From positions 1 through 21,598 of the IMG/VR virus record IMGVR_UViG_3300036770_002729: a DNA stretch of 21,598 nt. One strand, given 5' to 3'. The position numbers were made by a program, and so were the translations under genes. The notes under the pieces were generated by a model, which had not been told where the DNA came from, searched no databases, and saw only the letters and a program-made list of their open reading frames with translations. This document shows positions 73-9,424 of the stretch, piece after piece; the stretch's first letter is position 1, and each line of letters opens with the position of its first letter. The stretch comes from a virus.

Positions 73-100
73 TTTACAATCAAATACAATACTATATAAT
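73..100 (+). promoter_or_regulatory. Sigma70-type promoter for the left early operon
   Basis: TTTACA at 73-78 matches the -35 consensus at five of six positions. After 16 bases comes TATAAT at 95-100, a perfect -10 box. The region is very AT-rich. It lies about 30 bases upstream of the first small gene at 132, so transcription would start near 106-108 and run right. No operator-like palindrome is obvious over it. This is read from the sequence only. Confidence 0.7.
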
Positions 101-1559: not shown

Positions 1560-2906
1560 TTACAGTACATTCAAGATATTTTCGTCATCACGTTTAACAG
1601 GTCTTCTAAACTGGAAATGTGGTGACAATTCTCTAAAAGTTCCATTCGCAAACTCTAGACTAATTCTAAAATTCATTAAGCCATGCCTGTTTTTACGACA
1701 AACAAGTTCAAAATGGTTTGGGTCATGACCTGATTGCTCGGTATGTCGTCCAATGCCTATCCATATGCTACTAGCTTTTTCAGGGCCTGAGCTGTCACTA
1801 GCATCGGAGGCTATCGGTACAATATCATGGGTTTCTCGTTTATAATAATCACGATTAACTTGCTGTAAAAGTATGATGATACAACCGAGTTTTTTTGATA
1901 ATGATAAAAGTTGGTAAGCAATATCCTCAAGCATTTGCGCTTTTGATTCTCGATAACCTTCTATTTTAACAAGACCGATGAAATCAATAACAATAACAGA
2001 GATAGGCTTACTATAACTTGATAAAATGCTATGCCTGATAATATTATGAACATATTTTATGTCGGGGTAATCTAGTAAATCAAAAACCTTGATGTTTGGA
2101 CGCTCTATTGCTGCAAGTGTCGCTTTTTCAATATTTGATTTAGTCATTTGCGAATAAGGTTTTTTAATCAAAACGCCAAGGTATCTTTCCATCAACTCGA
2201 TTTTGTCTAATTCAAGACTGAAAAACAAGCTTTGTTTTTCGGGTTGCAGGCTTGCAATACTATCAAGCAAAAACAAAGAAAAACTAGATTTTCCGACACC
2301 TGAAGCACCAGCGACTATACACAATGTTCCAGCTCGTATGCCTTTATGCTCTAATGACTCATTGAGTTTTTTAAACGTTGTTTGATAATGAACAACACTT
2401 TCCAGCTCATTTGAAGCATTTAATGCAATTAAAGTATGTAAGTCTGTTTGTTTACTTGAGCTAATATTTTCAAAATTGTTAATTGCATTGAGATTATCAA
2501 AAAACAAAGCCTCTAGTTCGTCAATATCAGTCACAGAGTTTAAACTTTTGTTAATGTTGTCGAGATACACCACTCTGTTTTTTAACGCATTAAAACGCTT
2601 AAGCTTTAAAATATTATCTTCAAACCCTGTAAAAAATACGCCATTATCTGCAAGTTTAATATAATACTCTATGCGCGCTATAACATCTTGATGTTGAGTG
2701 TCGCTCATCAACTCAAAACTGTAGTAAATTGAATCTGACTTAATTTTATTAGCTACAAGTTTAAATAAATCTTGGTCTGCTAATGCTGTGAAGTCTTTTG
2801 GTTTTAATTCAATCACCGCTTTTTGTAATAAATTTTTGTTGGTGATATCAATACCGCCATTGACCAGCACCAGCATAATCGATTGCTCTAAAATTCTAGT
2901 ATTCAT
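1560..2906 (-). CDS. DnaB-family replicative DNA helicase
   Basis: A 448-residue protein with the architecture of replicative helicases. A DnaB N-terminal helical domain lies at about 1-100, a linker follows, and a RecA-like ATPase core starts near 185. Visible motifs are Walker A GASGVGKS (200-207), FFSLEL with the catalytic Glu (228-233), Walker B VIVID (304-308), LLQQVNRD (346-353) and an arginine-finger-like KNRHG (405-409). The enzyme forms a hexameric ring and unwinds DNA at the fork using ATP. Its ATG overlaps the TGA of the initiator gene (ATGA), and AAGGG precedes the start. Initiator followed by a phage-encoded DnaB-type helicase is the P22 gene 18/12 plan, in which no separate helicase loader gene is needed. 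The family call is firm. Confidence 0.93.
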   Translation of the reverse strand: MNTRILEQSIMLVLVNGGIDITNKNLLQKAVIELKPKDFTALADQDLFKLVANKIKSDSIYYSFELMSDTQHQDVIARIEYYIKLADNGVFFTGFEDNILKLKRFNALKNRVVYLDNINKSLNSVTDIDELEALFFDNLNAINNFENISSSKQTDLHTLIALNASNELESVVHYQTTFKKLNESLEHKGIRAGTLCIVAGASGVGKSSFSLFLLDSIASLQPEKQSLFFSLELDKIELMERYLGVLIKKPYSQMTKSNIEKATLAAIERPNIKVFDLLDYPDIKYVHNIIRHSILSSYSKPISVIVIDFIGLVKIEGYRESKAQMLEDIAYQLLSLSKKLGCIIILLQQVNRDYYKRETHDIVPIASDASDSSGPEKASSIWIGIGRHTEQSGHDPNHFELVCRKNRHGLMNFRISLEFANGTFRELSPHFQFRRPVKRDDENILNVL

Positions 2907-3667
2907 CTTTTCCCTTGTTTATCGTGTGCAATTAACCTTTCTATAGCTCTTTGCATGTTGCTAATTCTACAAAATGCAATCATGCCAGCGTCCTTTTCAG
3001 GCTTAAACATCCAATAGTCAATTTCTTTGAGTTTTTTTATTAGCGCCCTAAAGGTATCCTTGGTTAACTGATTTCCTTTTTCGCTAATGTCAACAGGCCA
3101 GCGCTTTATCAAAGTATTTAACAACCTCGCAAGCTCTTTTGATGGTTTTTGTGGGTTTCTCGGATGCGACAATGTAGGTAATTCTTCAATGTAAATATTT
3201 ATTAAATCACTTTGAGTAACAAGAGATGAATCGACAGATTCACATATATTTTCTATTTCATTATTGGTTTTTAATTTACTGGTATTTTGGGTGTCGCTGG
3301 AAGACACTAGCGGGGTGTCGTTGTGCGACACTAGTGGGGTGTCGCCGGAAGACACTAGCACACGTTTTTTTACAGTGTTCCACAAATAATCTTTTCCATT
3401 TATTTTGGTTCTAGTTATATATCCTTTTTTCTTTAATTTATTTGCAATGTTTATAGCGTTTCTTCGATTAATGCCAAGCATGTCTGCAATCCATTGGTAT
3501 GAAAAGGTAGCGTTTACGTCTGGATTCGGGTTACTCTCAAATTGCTCAATTTGACCATAAAAACGTAAATCATTTCCATTTAAATCAGTATCCCAAAGAA
3601 TGTAAAAAGGTATAACAGCTCTGTACCCAAGTTCTCGTTGATTAATGTTGCTTTTTTGTCCAGACAT
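2903..3667 (-). CDS. Replication initiator with winged-helix domain
   Basis: A 254-residue protein. Residues about 12-95 form a winged helix-turn-helix like that of phage replication proteins of the O/gp18/DnaD-like kind: FYGQIEQF, then FSYQWIADMLGINRRNAINI as the helix-turn-helix, then KKKGYITRTK as the wing. Residues 104-127 are three copies of an eight-residue repeat (LVSSGDTP type) within a polar, probably disordered linker. The C-terminal part (about 155-254) is helical and may contact the helicase encoded next. The start has AAAGGA upstream. The repeats encoded at 3289-3360 look like an origin inside the gene, as in lambda O and P22 gene 18. The role follows from domain plus context; no close homologue was identified. 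Confidence 0.8.
   Translation of the reverse strand: MSGQKSNINQRELGYRAVIPFYILWDTDLNGNDLRFYGQIEQFESNPNPDVNATFSYQWIADMLGINRRNAINIANKLKKKGYITRTKINGKDYLWNTVKKRVLVSSGDTPLVSHNDTPLVSSSDTQNTSKLKTNNEIENICESVDSSLVTQSDLINIYIEELPTLSHPRNPQKPSKELARLLNTLIKRWPVDISEKGNQLTKDTFRALIKKLKEIDYWMFKPEKDAGMIAFCRISNMQRAIERLIAHDKQGKR
3289..3360. repeat. Three 24-bp hairpin-forming iterons, candidate replication origin
   Basis: Three direct copies of 24 bp lie head to tail at 3289-3312, 3313-3336 and 3337-3360. Each has GTGTCG near its start and GACACTAG near its end, so each can fold. In copy 2, GTGTCG and CGACAC pair over six bases around TTGTG; in copies 1 and 3, GTGTC pairs with GACAC. Both flanks are very AT-rich (3241-3288 and 3361-3440), suitable for duplex opening. 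The block encodes a repetitive Ser/Asp/Thr/Pro linker of the initiator. Iterons inside the initiator gene are the known design of lambdoid origins. Function is inferred. Confidence 0.6.
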
Positions 3668-3707
3668 GGTAAAATCCTTTTGTTGTTATTGTTGTTGTAA
3701 GATGCAC

Positions 3708-3723
3708 CCCGACTGCAATCGGG
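3708..3723. promoter_or_regulatory. Operator-like palindrome before the initiator gene
   Basis: CCCGACTGCAATCGGG is a near-perfect 16-bp palindrome, with arms CCCGA and TCGGG around a TGCA core and one mismatched pair. It lies in the 83-base spacer between the winged-helix gene at 3751 and the initiator gene, about 40 bases before the latter's start. No T run follows on either strand, so it is not a terminator. It could be a binding site for one of the three helix-turn-helix proteins of the operon, or an RNA hairpin in the leader. Confidence 0.4.
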
Positions 3724-3750
3724 AAAGCATGGAAGCTGTATTTTTACAAC

Positions 3751-3960
3751 TTATACCACTATTCTTAAAATTTCCGCTATTACCTTATTAACAGTTTCAT
3801 CATCTAAGCTAAATCTTTGTTTTATTTGCCTAATGCTGATATTCGCATCATTAGACTTTTCTTGGTTGCAGCGTATATATGTAAGCACAGCCAATCCTAA
3901 AACAGACAAACCTGACATCTCAGAATCACTAATGCTAATTACATAATTTCTATCTATCAT
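3751..3960 (-). CDS. Minimal winged-helix DNA-binding protein lacking its wing
   Basis: A 69-residue protein. MSGLSVLGLAVLTYIRCNQ is the first helix, ISIRQIKQRFSLDDETVNKVIAEIL forms the helix-turn-helix, and the protein ends at once with RIVV, where a beta wing would normally begin. Its layout parallels the 89-residue protein at 4445-4714, and the two may be paralogues. AAGGAAAG seven bases before the ATG gives a good ribosome site. It is read in the Cro-initiator operon, after a 188-base structured spacer. It may be a replication or transcription accessory factor; the function is unknown. Confidence 0.65.
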   Translation of the reverse strand: MIDRNYVISISDSEMSGLSVLGLAVLTYIRCNQEKSNDANISIRQIKQRFSLDDETVNKVIAEILRIVV

Positions 3961-3973
3961 TATTCTTTCCTTA

Positions 3974-4117
3974 AGTTAGAAAAATTTTAACTAGAGGTTT
4001 ACAGACGAGAATAGTATGGTTATAATTTACCCATACCGTAACTGTCCTAAACCTCAAGTTGCGGTATTCAATGGCCTACGCCAAGGTTAGCTGGGAGGTA
4101 CGAACTCCTAACTAACC
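3974..4117. other. Structured intergenic element: several inverted repeats
   Basis: This stretch lies in the gene-free 3961-4148. AGTTA (3974-3978) pairs with TAACT (3988-3992). GAGGTTTA (3994-4001) pairs with TAAACCTC (4048-4055) and is continued inward by CAG/CTG across a three-base bulge. GTATGG (4014-4019) pairs with CCATAC (4031-4036) inside that stem. AGGTTAG (4084-4090) pairs with CTAACCT (4112-4118), continued by TGGGAG/CTCCTA around a seven-base loop. In addition ATACCG (4033-4038) could pair instead with CGGTAT (4062-4067), excluding part of the inner stem. No T run follows any stem, so these are not ordinary terminators. No tRNA cloverleaf fits. It may be an RNA leader or a protein-binding region. 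Confidence 0.5.
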
Positions 4118-4148
4118 TCATCTTACATCACAATATAATTTAAAACAA

Positions 4149-4448
4149 TCACATAATCATAGATTTATCTTGTGCATAACATGTTTTACACTGCTTGTCT
4201 TCACAAACATCAGCCATTCTTAATTTGCCTTTGCGCAGCGTTTCAATGCTGTTTTTTTTCCATTTGCCATAGTTTTCTGCTTTTCCTGTAAATCCATACT
4301 CTAAGTCACAATAAGAGCAAGCATATAAATCACCATATGATTTAAAACACTTGTACCCACACTTTGGACAAAAATATACATAAGGCTTATCAGCGTAATA
4401 GCGCAATAATTCTAAGAATGTATGTCTTATCATGTACTCGCAGCTCAT
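4149..4448 (-). CDS. Small zinc-ribbon protein
   Basis: A 99-residue protein with CPKC at 27-30 and CSYC at 44-47, the two knuckles of a treble-clef or zinc-ribbon fold, and a further C-x4-C-x2-C cluster at 82-90. An N-terminal helix (about 6-20) precedes the ribbon, and a Lys-rich stretch (62-76) follows it. Such ribbons usually bind nucleic acid or protein. I do not recognise a named family. Its ATG overlaps the TGA of the preceding winged-helix gene (ATGA), which favours this start although its own ribosome site is weak. It is part of the leftward early operon. Confidence 0.75.
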   Translation of the reverse strand: MSCEYMIRHTFLELLRYYADKPYVYFCPKCGYKCFKSYGDLYACSYCDLEYGFTGKAENYGKWKKNSIETLRKGKLRMADVCEDKQCKTCYAQDKSMIM

Positions 4449-4714
4449 CGCGTCACTATAAGCTTGTATGACTGCATAAACTCAGTATCTAAGTTGTCAT
4501 CAAGACACTTGATAAATCCTTTCGCTGATAAATTGCTAATTGCTTCAGTTACAGCATCACTATCAAGTCCTGTAAATTTAGATAGTTTAATGCTTGATAC
4601 ACGCACTATTTGCTCATCATCACTCATGTCAGCCAGGCCAATCAAAATTAACTTTTCATGCGGCGTGATTGTGTCAGGATGCTGTCTCAATGCCCATGCT
4701 AATGCTCTTATCAT
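4445..4714 (-). CDS. Winged-helix DNA-binding protein
   Basis: An 89-residue protein. PHEKLILIGLADMSDDEQ is the first helix and turn, VRVSSIKLSKFTGLDSDAVTEAISNLSAKGFIK is the helix-turn-helix, and ends of strands follow as the wing (IKCLDD ... YKLIVT). This matches the N-terminal domain of phage replication proteins and MarR/GntR-like regulators. The start has AGGGAG upstream, and the gene begins 41 bases inside the end of the Cro-like gene in another frame. It occupies the place that cII holds after cro in lambda, but I see no similarity to CII. It could control late steps of the operon or take part in replication. Confidence 0.75.
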   Translation of the reverse strand: MIRALAWALRQHPDTITPHEKLILIGLADMSDDEQIVRVSSIKLSKFTGLDSDAVTEAISNLSAKGFIKCLDDNLDTEFMQSYKLIVTR

Positions 4715-4949
4715 CTTTACTCCCTGTGTTATTGTTATTTTTATTTAATCTGCTCTTATAAAACTTGCTATGCGTGTTCACATCGTCTGCTAGTAATTCT
4801 CCTTCAGTTAACCTTTCTAAATTAAGTTGATGCAAATATGGTATATAACCCTGTTTGCGCCAAAACTGTATTGCCTGTGGCGTTATATTTAAAGTTTTTG
4901 CCATCTTATAATATGTCTTAAAGTACTGCTTTGCTTCTTCTAATGTCAT
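4674..4949 (-). CDS. Cro-like transcriptional repressor
   Basis: A 91-residue protein. Residues 1-55 have the form of phage Cro proteins: a short N-terminal helix (EAKQYF), a helix-turn-helix at about 14-34 (KMAKTLNITPQAIQFWRKQG), then the typical IPYLHQLNLERLTEGEL segment. The remaining 35 residues are a polar Asn/Lys/Ser tail, longer than in most Cro proteins. Cro proteins dimerise on palindromic operators and shut off early promoters. GGAGG eight bases before the ATG supports the start. It is the first gene of the leftward early operon, and a 17-bp palindrome lies in its presumed promoter. No CI gene is present on the other side of the control region, where recombination genes stand instead. 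Confidence 0.82.
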   Translation of the reverse strand: MTLEEAKQYFKTYYKMAKTLNITPQAIQFWRKQGYIPYLHQLNLERLTEGELLADDVNTHSKFYKSRLNKNNNNTGSKDDKSISMGIETAS

Positions 4950-5868: not shown

Positions 5869-6777
5869 ATGAATACACAATTACAGCAAATTGCATTGGC
5901 TGAAAAGATGCAAACTAAAGTATTGGCTCTATGGGAAGATAATAAATCGTTGGCTGATATACGAAAGGCTTATGCTAAAAATGCCACAGATACAGAATTT
6001 AATATGCTTATTGAAATGGGTAGAGCTACAGCACTTAATCCTTTTTTAAGAGAAATCTGGCTTGTTAAATACGGTAACGGCGCAGCACAAATATTTATCG
6101 GTCGAGATGGATATAGAATAGCAGCGCAACGCCAACCAGATTATGATTATCATTTGGTTGATGCAGTATATAGCAATGACAAATTCCAAATGTGGAATGG
6201 AGAAGTGCAACACCAGTATGAAATAGCTAACAGAGGTCACTTAATTGGTGCGTATTGCGTGGTAAAACGTAAATCAGCGTCACGTACAATGTATGTCTAT
6301 GTTGAGCTTACAGAATATGACTTAAAGCAAGGGTTATGGAAAAGTAAGCCTGCAACAATGATTAAGAAAGTTGCTGAAGCACAAGCTATAAGAATGGCAT
6401 TTCAATCCACATTTGCAGGAACTTATGCTGAAGAAGAACTTCCGGAAAGCAAGTCAAAAATACCAGAAGATAAACCAGTGGCAGGCAATGTTTACGATGC
6501 TCAGGTTGTTAAATCTGAAGTGGTAATGATAACTGAAGAACAAGTTACTAAAATTGATGACTTAATGATGCTTGGCGATATATCATATGAACGTATTATT
6601 GACGCAATTAAAAAGTTTTATAAAAAAGATTCGCTATCAAAATTAACTGCATTTGAGGCTGATAATTTTATAACAAGATTAGAAAAAAGGGTTCAGAATG
6701 AGCTTTCTCAGAATAATGATGTTAAAGGCGTTGTTGAACATACTGAAGCATCAACAGATGAGAGCGAAGAATCCTAA
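5869..6777 (+). CDS. bet: Bet/RecT-family single-strand annealing protein
   Basis: A 302-residue protein of the phage Bet (RecT superfamily) annealing proteins. Diagnostic segments are NPFLREIWLVKYG (57-69), IFIGRDGYRIAA (75-86) and the WKSKPATMIKKVAEAQAIRMAF core (157-178). It would coat the 3' single-stranded tails made by the upstream exonuclease and anneal them to complementary strands. The annealing domain ends near 190. The remaining 110 residues are a linker, a small helical region and a Ser/Glu-rich acidic tail, making it longer than lambda Bet (261). Its ATG directly follows the TAA of the exonuclease gene, with AAAGGTG as ribosome site, so the two are probably made together. Confidence 0.92.
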   Translation: MNTQLQQIALAEKMQTKVLALWEDNKSLADIRKAYAKNATDTEFNMLIEMGRATALNPFLREIWLVKYGNGAAQIFIGRDGYRIAAQRQPDYDYHLVDAVYSNDKFQMWNGEVQHQYEIANRGHLIGAYCVVKRKSASRTMYVYVELTEYDLKQGLWKSKPATMIKKVAEAQAIRMAFQSTFAGTYAEEELPESKSKIPEDKPVAGNVYDAQVVKSEVVMITEEQVTKIDDLMMLGDISYERIIDAIKKFYKKDSLSKLTAFEADNFITRLEKRVQNELSQNNDVKGVVEHTEASTDESEES

Positions 6778-8175: not shown

Positions 8176-8692
8176 GATTACTATTCTCCTTGCTGTAATA
8201 TTCTTTTTCTTTTTGTACAACAATTTCCTCACAAACACTGTTTTCAGTAAAATGTGACCTGCCGAATATACGAACTGCAATATACATTTTTAAACTTGAA
8301 TATAACGAATTGCCTTCATTACGCAATAACCAAAAAAACATGTCATCAATTTCTTTTCTTGTTCTTTTTTCAGGACAACTGTAATTATAGTCATGCCAAA
8401 TAGATGGATATACAAACGATGATTTATATGGCGCATCAATAAACCACAGCGCTTTTGGTATACTTGCAAAATCTGTGCGGTAGAAAGCAGGAACAACACT
8501 TGATTCTTTGTTGATATTATAAATAGTATCTTCAGTGGTTAAATAATCATATTCTTGATAGGGAAATAATGGGCTTTTTTCAATCACATCAACTTCATAA
8601 GTTTCTATTTCTTGAAACATCATTGCACACCCAAAGTATGTAATGATTAAAATCCCTAATGTTATTACCATAGCATTTTTTATTTTAGACAT
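8168..8692 (-). CDS. DUF1353 family protein with membrane anchor
   Basis: A 174-residue protein. The N-terminal 8-25 (MVITLGILIITYFGCAMM) is a membrane segment, with Cys22 in a poor lipobox-like context. The rest resembles DUF1353 phage proteins: VPAFYRTDFASIPKALWF (67-84), then YPSIWHDYNYSC with the conserved His-Asp, then KEIDDMFFWLLRNEG. The biochemical activity of DUF1353 is not established to my knowledge. Many relatives lie next to phage lysis or tail genes, and the anchor suggests action at the inner membrane or periplasm. AAGGGTG precedes the ATG. Only 16 bases separate its start from the terminator hairpin of the late operon. It could assist lysis, but it lacks normal holin or spanin form. 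Confidence 0.75.
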   Translation of the reverse strand: MSKIKNAMVITLGILIITYFGCAMMFQEIETYEVDVIEKSPLFPYQEYDYLTTEDTIYNINKESSVVPAFYRTDFASIPKALWFIDAPYKSSFVYPSIWHDYNYSCPEKRTRKEIDDMFFWLLRNEGNSLYSSLKMYIAVRIFGRSHFTENSVCEEIVVQKEKEYYSKENSNHG

Positions 8693-8708
8693 TTTTCACC
8701 CTTATATT

Positions 8709-8730
8709 AAAAAACCCCATTTTCTGGGGT
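8709..8730 (-). terminator. Rho-independent terminator of the late operon
   Basis: ACCCCA (8714-8719) and TGGGGT (8725-8730) form a six-pair GC-rich stem with loop TTTTC. Read leftward, the stem is followed by six Ts (8709-8714 as As on the plus strand), the classic form. Rightward it is followed by CTTTTT, so it works both ways in principle. It closes the late operon 8 bases after the stop of the gene at 8738-9424. Confidence 0.88.
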
Positions 8731-8737
8731 CTTTTTA

Positions 8738-9424
8738 TTATGGGGTTAATGTTAATGCTTGCCAAGCAAAAACAGAAGCTCCAGGGTCGCCAGAGCATAA
8801 AACAGTAATGGTATTAGCAGTTGGTGTTACTTTTTGAATTTCTACAGGGTTAGCACTTGATTCAATAGCAACAAATGCTAAATCTGTAGCAGCTGCACCA
8901 GTTGCTGTAATTGTAACAGTTGCAGAGCCGCCAGCCTCGTTGTGTTTGTTTGCATATTTCACAACAGCAGCAGGTTGTAATGCAGTTTCTAGTTTTGCTT
9001 TAGTTACAGCCGCGTTGATGATTTTTGTAGTGGTTACTGCGTTAGCTGCAATTGTTAATGCACCCGATGATGCTATTGTCGCATCCCCAGACATCGAAAC
9101 TGCTGTCGCTACTCCCGCACCGTTTCCCACCAAGATATTTGCAGTAGCTAAAGGTAAAGTGGTGCTTGAAGCAACCAAAGACCAGTTACCGGAGCTATAG
9201 CTGATTTCAAGCCATGCTACTTGTACGCTTGTAGCACTTGGAGATGATTTGATAGTTACTAACGCCATATCTGATTCTTTGAGACTAGCGCCTTCTTGTT
9301 GGGCTTTATTTAAGTAGCCAGTAGTAGTTACAGTTGCTAAAGTGTCATTGGTGTCAATGTAGACTACGCGAGGATTTACACCCACAAGTCCAGTTACAGA
9401 TGTTACAATATTTAAAATTGCCAT
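8738..9424 (-). CDS. Virion structural protein with fibre-like repeats
   Basis: A 228-residue Ala/Thr/Ser-rich protein. Residues 1-90 are a compact N-terminal domain (IVTSVTGLVGVNPRVVYI, then NKAQQEGASLKESDMALV). About 95-145 (GNGAGVATAVSMSGDATI, then ALTIAANAVTTTKI) is the repeat style of trimeric tail-fibre shafts. The last 85 residues are a beta-rich domain ending FAWQALTLTP. It is probably a tail or capsid-surface appendage, not an enzyme. AAGGA, lying in the last codons of the upstream gene, serves as its ribosome site. It is the last gene of the late operon, directly before the terminator. Confidence 0.7.
   Translation of the reverse strand: MAILNIVTSVTGLVGVNPRVVYIDTNDTLATVTTTGYLNKAQQEGASLKESDMALVTIKSSPSATSVQVAWLEISYSSGNWSLVASSTTLPLATANILVGNGAGVATAVSMSGDATIASSGALTIAANAVTTTKIINAAVTKAKLETALQPAAVVKYANKHNEAGGSATVTITATGAAATDLAFVAIESSANPVEIQKVTPTANTITVLCSGDPGASVFAWQALTLTP

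Follow-up and report, generated by a model that had tools for sequence, protein, structure and literature searches.

We found that the gene-free gap at 3961-4148 of the window (the whole 21,598-nt stretch of DNA analyzed, which is a portion of an uncultured phage) carries among its inverted repeats a well-conserved predicted sigma-70 promoter on the plus strand, and that the DNA downstream of this promoter quite probably encodes a 93-nt plus-strand RNA of three hairpins ending in CATCTTA. As judged by sequence comparison, promoter and RNA represent a small new RNA family in uncultured phages that is like lambda oop in layout and not in sequence. We consider it possible, with a probability of about 0.4, that they form a pO/oop-like unit that would tune the expression of the replication operon or the activity of the origin.

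Both ORFs that flank the gap in the ORF list are on the minus strand and belong to an operon with the order cro-like gene, 89-aa gene, 99-aa gene, variable gene, O, and dnaB. The features of the gap and its surroundings are given in Table 1.

Table 1. Positions of the promoter, the predicted RNA, and the neighboring genes and elements in the window.
Feature	Position	Strand	Description
DnaB-type helicase	1560-2906	minus	Last of the operon genes listed
O-like initiator	2903-3667	minus	After the 69-aa gene
Iterons, candidate origin	3289-3359		Three 23-bp repeats with 24-bp spacing, inside the O-like gene
69-aa protein	3751-3960	minus	Just after the gap in transcription order
A/T-rich tract, possible UP element	3976-3991	plus	Upstream of the -35 box; contains the GTTA/TAAC repeat of the initial annotation
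Outer repeat GAGGTTTA/TAAACCTC and inner repeat GTATGG/CCATAC	3994-4056		Left arms are promoter DNA, outside the predicted RNA
-35 box	3998-4003	plus	TTTACA; 6/6 bases invariant in the window, L014, L003, and L114
-10 box	4021-4026	plus	TATAAT; 6/6 bases invariant
Predicted transcription start	4033	plus	A; seventh base after the -10 box; A in all copies
Hairpin 1	4033-4067	plus	ATACCGTAAC (4033-4042)/GTTGCGGTAT (4058-4067), loop 4043-4057
Hairpin 2	4072-4083	plus	TGGC CTAC GCCA; stem invariant, loop CTAC or CTAA
Hairpin 3	4084-4118	plus	AGGTTAG-C-TGGGAG/CTCCTA-A-CTAACCT; invariant C-A mismatch (4091/4111)
Unpaired tail	4119-4125	plus	CATCTTA; invariant in five sequences; end of the conserved block
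99-aa protein	4149-4448	minus	Cys-X2-Cys pairs; just before the gap in transcription order
Terminator-like hairpin and T run	4235-4259	plus	Hairpin at 4235-4252; inside the neighboring 99-aa gene
O-like winged-helix fragment	4445-4714	minus	Second in transcription order, after the cro-like gene
P22-Cro-like regulator	4674-4949	minus	First in the transcription order of the operon
Exonuclease, RecT, SSB	start 5044	plus	Recombination genes

Relatives were sought through the neighboring proteins and a conserved 17-base motif, and the RNA unit was found in L012, L011, L014 (a 37-kb phage contig), L003, and L114. The L012 spacer is identical to that of the window, and the L011 copy is incomplete because its contig begins inside the RNA unit; the distinct complete copies are thus four (window, L014, L003, and L114), and the distinct sequences five with the truncated L011. 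In this region, IMGVR_UViG_3300034073_002733 (L005/L010) and the window are 100% identical and may represent one virus; the record was left out of the counts. A covariance model, R1, was built from four sequences, with L114 not among them, and gave 97-113 bits for the complete copies, 107 bits for L114, and 82 bits for the truncated L011. The 17-base pattern occurs in at least 116 stretches of genome contigs, which is about the chance expectation; when R1 was applied to 80 of those loci, L114 alone was a strong match among the matches listed. Three more pattern scans of viral records gave no further copies, and R1 searches against samples of 385, 369, and 198 genomes from three classes returned the L114 contig again and nothing else. 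By blast, no match was found for the region against phages, for the spacer against plasmids, or for the L114 copy against phages. L114 sits in a bin labeled Chitinophagaceae, probably through a binning error, since its promoter appears to be of the sigma-70 type. The unit is dispensable, as L013, a member of the same phage group, lacks it at that place. In the same gap, L013 has instead, on the plus strand at about 6238-6268, a hairpin (ATAGCGTTAG/CTAACGCTAT) that resembles a terminator and carries a T run.

The putative promoter (TTTACA-17 nt-TATAAT; 3998-4026, plus strand) matches the sigma-70 consensus at 11 of 12 positions. The 17-nt spacing is invariant in the window, L014, L003, and L114, as are seven of the 17 spacer bases. 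Only two sites in the whole window reach a match of at least 11/12, this one among them, and promoter-like matches as a class are no commoner in the window than in shuffled sequences; the promoter claim therefore rests on conservation and not on match score. The other such site (73-100, plus strand; TTTACA-16-TATAAT) lies ahead of small plus-strand genes at the left end of the window. The tract upstream of the -35 box is A/T-rich in all four distinct complete copies, and the GTTA/TAAC repeat within it is missing from L003. In every complete copy, A4033 is also the first base of hairpin 1.

The inverted repeats named in the initial annotation are all present, and the gap folds far beyond shuffled sequences on both strands. 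What the annotation overlooked was the promoter lying within these repeats, and the fact that half of them are upstream of the predicted start. Because their left arms precede the start and overlap the promoter, GAGGTTTA/TAAACCTC and GTATGG/CCATAC cannot pair in the predicted RNA. Mismatches interrupt the outer repeat in L003, L014, and L114; the inner one is preserved in L003 by a paired change and broken in L114. The pairing of ATACCG (4033-4038) with CGGTAT (4062-4067), correctly spotted but proposed only as a competing alternative, is part of hairpin 1 and is retained among the copies.

On the plus strand, the predicted fold of the gap has an energy of -50.3 kcal/mol (z -4.9), equaled by none of 200 shuffles; the minus strand gives z -4.3. 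On both strands, the window's most extreme folding outlier lies elsewhere (8601-8800, around a gap between a gene start at 8692 and a gene end at 8738). The three hairpins recur in the minimum-free-energy fold of each of the four distinct complete copies (z -4.0 to -5.7). All 10 pairs of hairpin 1 are standard throughout; two have changed on both sides, both in the single lineage L014, and two via G-U, while the loop sequence varies between copies. Of the 13 pairs of hairpin 3, two have double changes, found in different lineages. An invariant TCAA separates hairpins 1 and 2. In the model-fitted alignment, 124 of 124 pair cells are standard and four pairs in all carry compensatory double changes; three of 500 shuffles reach this level, and sliding the partner strand by 1-3 columns reduces pairing to 28-50%. 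The cells include eight G-U and no A-C on the plus strand; these eight would be A-C on the minus strand, which leaves 116/124 paired there and points to structural constraint on the plus strand, with the independent wobble events being few (about four sites).

These results support the earlier suggestion of a folded or small RNA, given the common fold, the compensatory changes, and the promoter starting on hairpin 1. Searches for known RNAs were negative: the Rfam 15 covariance models gave no match at gathering score in the whole window and none at E<=10 in 3900-4250, and ARAGORN gave no tRNA or tmRNA match, in line with the absence of a tRNA fold noted before. Decayed or short coding sequence is also not what the copies indicate. 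The ATG frame of 14 codons at 4071 stops at codon 3 in L014 and at codon 8 in L003 and L011, and the gap contains no good ORF, as first described.

The conserved block corresponds to ~3980-4126 of the window, while the adjacent genes change between phages. The window and L114 are 89% identical over 161 nt (3967-4126), with no other match in the 2.3 kb compared; the window and L003 are 81% identical over 153 nt (3980-4128), with a further match solely in and just before the initiator gene. Homology to both stops at 4126-4128, and in both comparisons the two genes flanking the unit are unrelated. Each of the four phages has a gene of its own on the promoter side (69, 212, 166, and 107 aa, the 212-aa protein with HNH-like cysteines), with no blastp match, and this position looks like a cargo slot. 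The slot, with its four unrelated genes, is at 5495-6133 in L014, 3500-4000 in L003, 2192-2515 in L114, and 3751-3960 in the window. The gene on the other side belongs to one family in the window and L014 and to another in L003 and L114. Because the flanking genes vary, the conserved entity as judged from these alignments is the promoter plus the 93-nt RNA up to CATCTTA; no antisense relationship to a particular gene is conserved. The recombination genes lie ~1 kb downstream of the unit in sense orientation in the window, L014, L003, and L114, and the place of the unit relative to them is the same in all copies.

No copy has a U tract after hairpin 3, so the absence of a T run noted initially is correct for the hairpins themselves; however, a terminator-like hairpin with a T run follows ~115 bases on (4235-4252). 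This site is identical in L014 and weaker in L012, and L003 and L114 have no strong counterpart near the unit. In the window and L014, the plus-strand transcript probably ends at 4235-4259, and such an RNA, ~227 nt long, would be antisense to the 99-aa gene at its 3′ end. With no U tract after hairpin 3 and the 4235 terminator not conserved, a discrete end of the lambda OOP kind is not general in this family.

The repeats inside the O-like gene of the window have counterparts in L014, L003, and L013, whose O genes also carry three 21-22-bp repeats, related in sequence (L003) or different. These repeats are candidate replication origins; in the lambda sequence, iterons are likewise found inside the O gene. 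A second conserved non-coding element (3668-3750) precedes the O-like gene, with a minus-strand hairpin (CCCGATTGCAGTCGGG) followed by CATCTTACA; it is 96% kept in L014 and 78% in L013, and was not seen in L003. The 9-mer CATCTTACA occurs twice in the window (3696-3704, minus strand; 4119-4127, plus strand; 0.17 expected), each time directly after a hairpin, once per structured gap and in opposite orientations. A boxA reading of CATCTTACA was considered on account of TCTTACA, which the boxA of lambda nutR also contains, and is too weak to claim. A pairing of the hairpin 1 loop with the Shine-Dalgarno site of O was considered and dropped because the loop, compared by eye, varies.

The closest layout is that of lambda. 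There, the intrinsic terminator tO inside the upstream gene gives the short antisense OOP RNA, which down-regulates cII with RNase III. The lambda promoter pO is convergent to pR and lies between cII and O, beside the iterons; it reduces pR transcription, and lambda replication suffers when it is lost (PMC3985674). Similarly, the promoter here faces an operon of the cro-cII-O-P type head-on from a position between O and an early gene, with the iterons inside O behind it; use of the 4235 terminator would add a further shared feature, an overlap with the upstream gene at its 3′ end. Unlike oop, the phage unit has a three-hairpin 5′ domain with no U tract after the structure, and one variable gene separates it from O. 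Furthermore, R1 finds no match in the lambda cII-O region, no cII homolog was identified here, and the gene that would be the antisense target is not cII and is not conserved among the phages. A candidate counterpart of tO, the 4235 site, has a limited distribution: L014 shares it with the window, L012 has a weak version, and L003 and L114 lack it.

In the pO/oop-like reading, the strong promoter and the 93-nt RNA from A4033 would form a compact unit transcribed head-on against the replication operon, with the iterons of the O gene behind it. By analogy with the lambda layout, the RNA and its convergent promoter would jointly lower or time transcription of the operon, as pO/oop does, and may influence the nearby origin. 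The RNA domain would add a function that needs structure: hairpin 1 at the extreme 5′ end may protect the RNA, and hairpins 2 and 3 with CATCTTA may bind a protein or RNA polymerase.

Other roles for the same RNA deserve consideration. In phage HK022, put RNA binds the zinc-binding domain of the beta′ subunit and leads to read-through of terminators. HK022 putL is located just downstream of PL, is ~70 nt long, starts near the 5′ end, and forms two stem-loops (PMC9378689). The unit here resembles putL and putR in being a hairpin RNA of similar size directly downstream of a phage promoter with no immediate terminator. If its hairpins likewise bound RNA polymerase, the enzyme could ignore pauses and terminators and read through the antisense genes toward exo, recT, and SSB, which lie ahead in sense orientation as described above. 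We regard this as rather unlikely, given that the RNA has three hairpins and not two and is oriented against the replication operon, that R1 has no match in the HK022 stretch searched, that exo has its own extended -10 promoter candidate, which is retained in the unit-less L013, and that the terminator-like site at 4235 is retained in L014. Among the rivals it is nevertheless the one that most deserves testing, because the unit ends right after its hairpins without a terminator of its own. A trans-acting sRNA whose targets would be mRNAs of host or phage, or a protein of the host, with its location incidental, is unlikely too. It would fit a unit that is conserved whatever its neighbors, the invariant CATCTTA and TCAA, and the known phage sRNAs VpdS and PreS of ~50-90 nt (PMC12197685), with which the RNA shares size class and phage origin and no known homology; against it are the lack of a terminator directly after the hairpins, the varying loop of hairpin 1, and the fixed position relative to the recombination genes. 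There is also a small chance that the family is a new class of promoter-proximal phage RNA acting on host RNA polymerase or replication initiation, the promoter-plus-RNA cassette being passed between phages with its neighbors irrelevant.

The two proposals of the initial annotation place the function elsewhere. A multi-site DNA element for helix-turn-helix proteins, such as an operator palindrome around the promoter for the cro-like or another such protein, or, beyond that annotation, a hairpin of single-stranded origin DNA, would be in keeping with the dyads that surround both promoter boxes of the window and with the paired change that preserves the inner one in L003. The decay of the outer dyad in three copies and of the inner one in L114 weakens this proposal, and hairpins 1 and 3, downstream of the start, vary in a paired, G-U-tolerant manner, which makes a DNA element improbable. 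A leader or attenuator within the replication-operon mRNA, the main idea of that annotation for the initiator and helicase genes, seems very improbable. The minus strand does fold, and a continuous operon would require its transcription, but the wobble pairs and the promoter place the RNA on the plus strand, opposite those genes; minus-strand folds differ between homologs, pairing on that strand is less complete, and promoter scans gave no conserved minus-strand promoter.

Convergent RNA units beside a phage initiator gene are few, and the unit described here adds to them a covariation-supported RNA family with its promoter. The unit is small enough for plasmid testing. If several unrelated phage groups have an RNA with its convergent promoter placed between O/ori and the early regulators, the layout of lambda pO/oop would be a general solution and not a lambdoid oddity.
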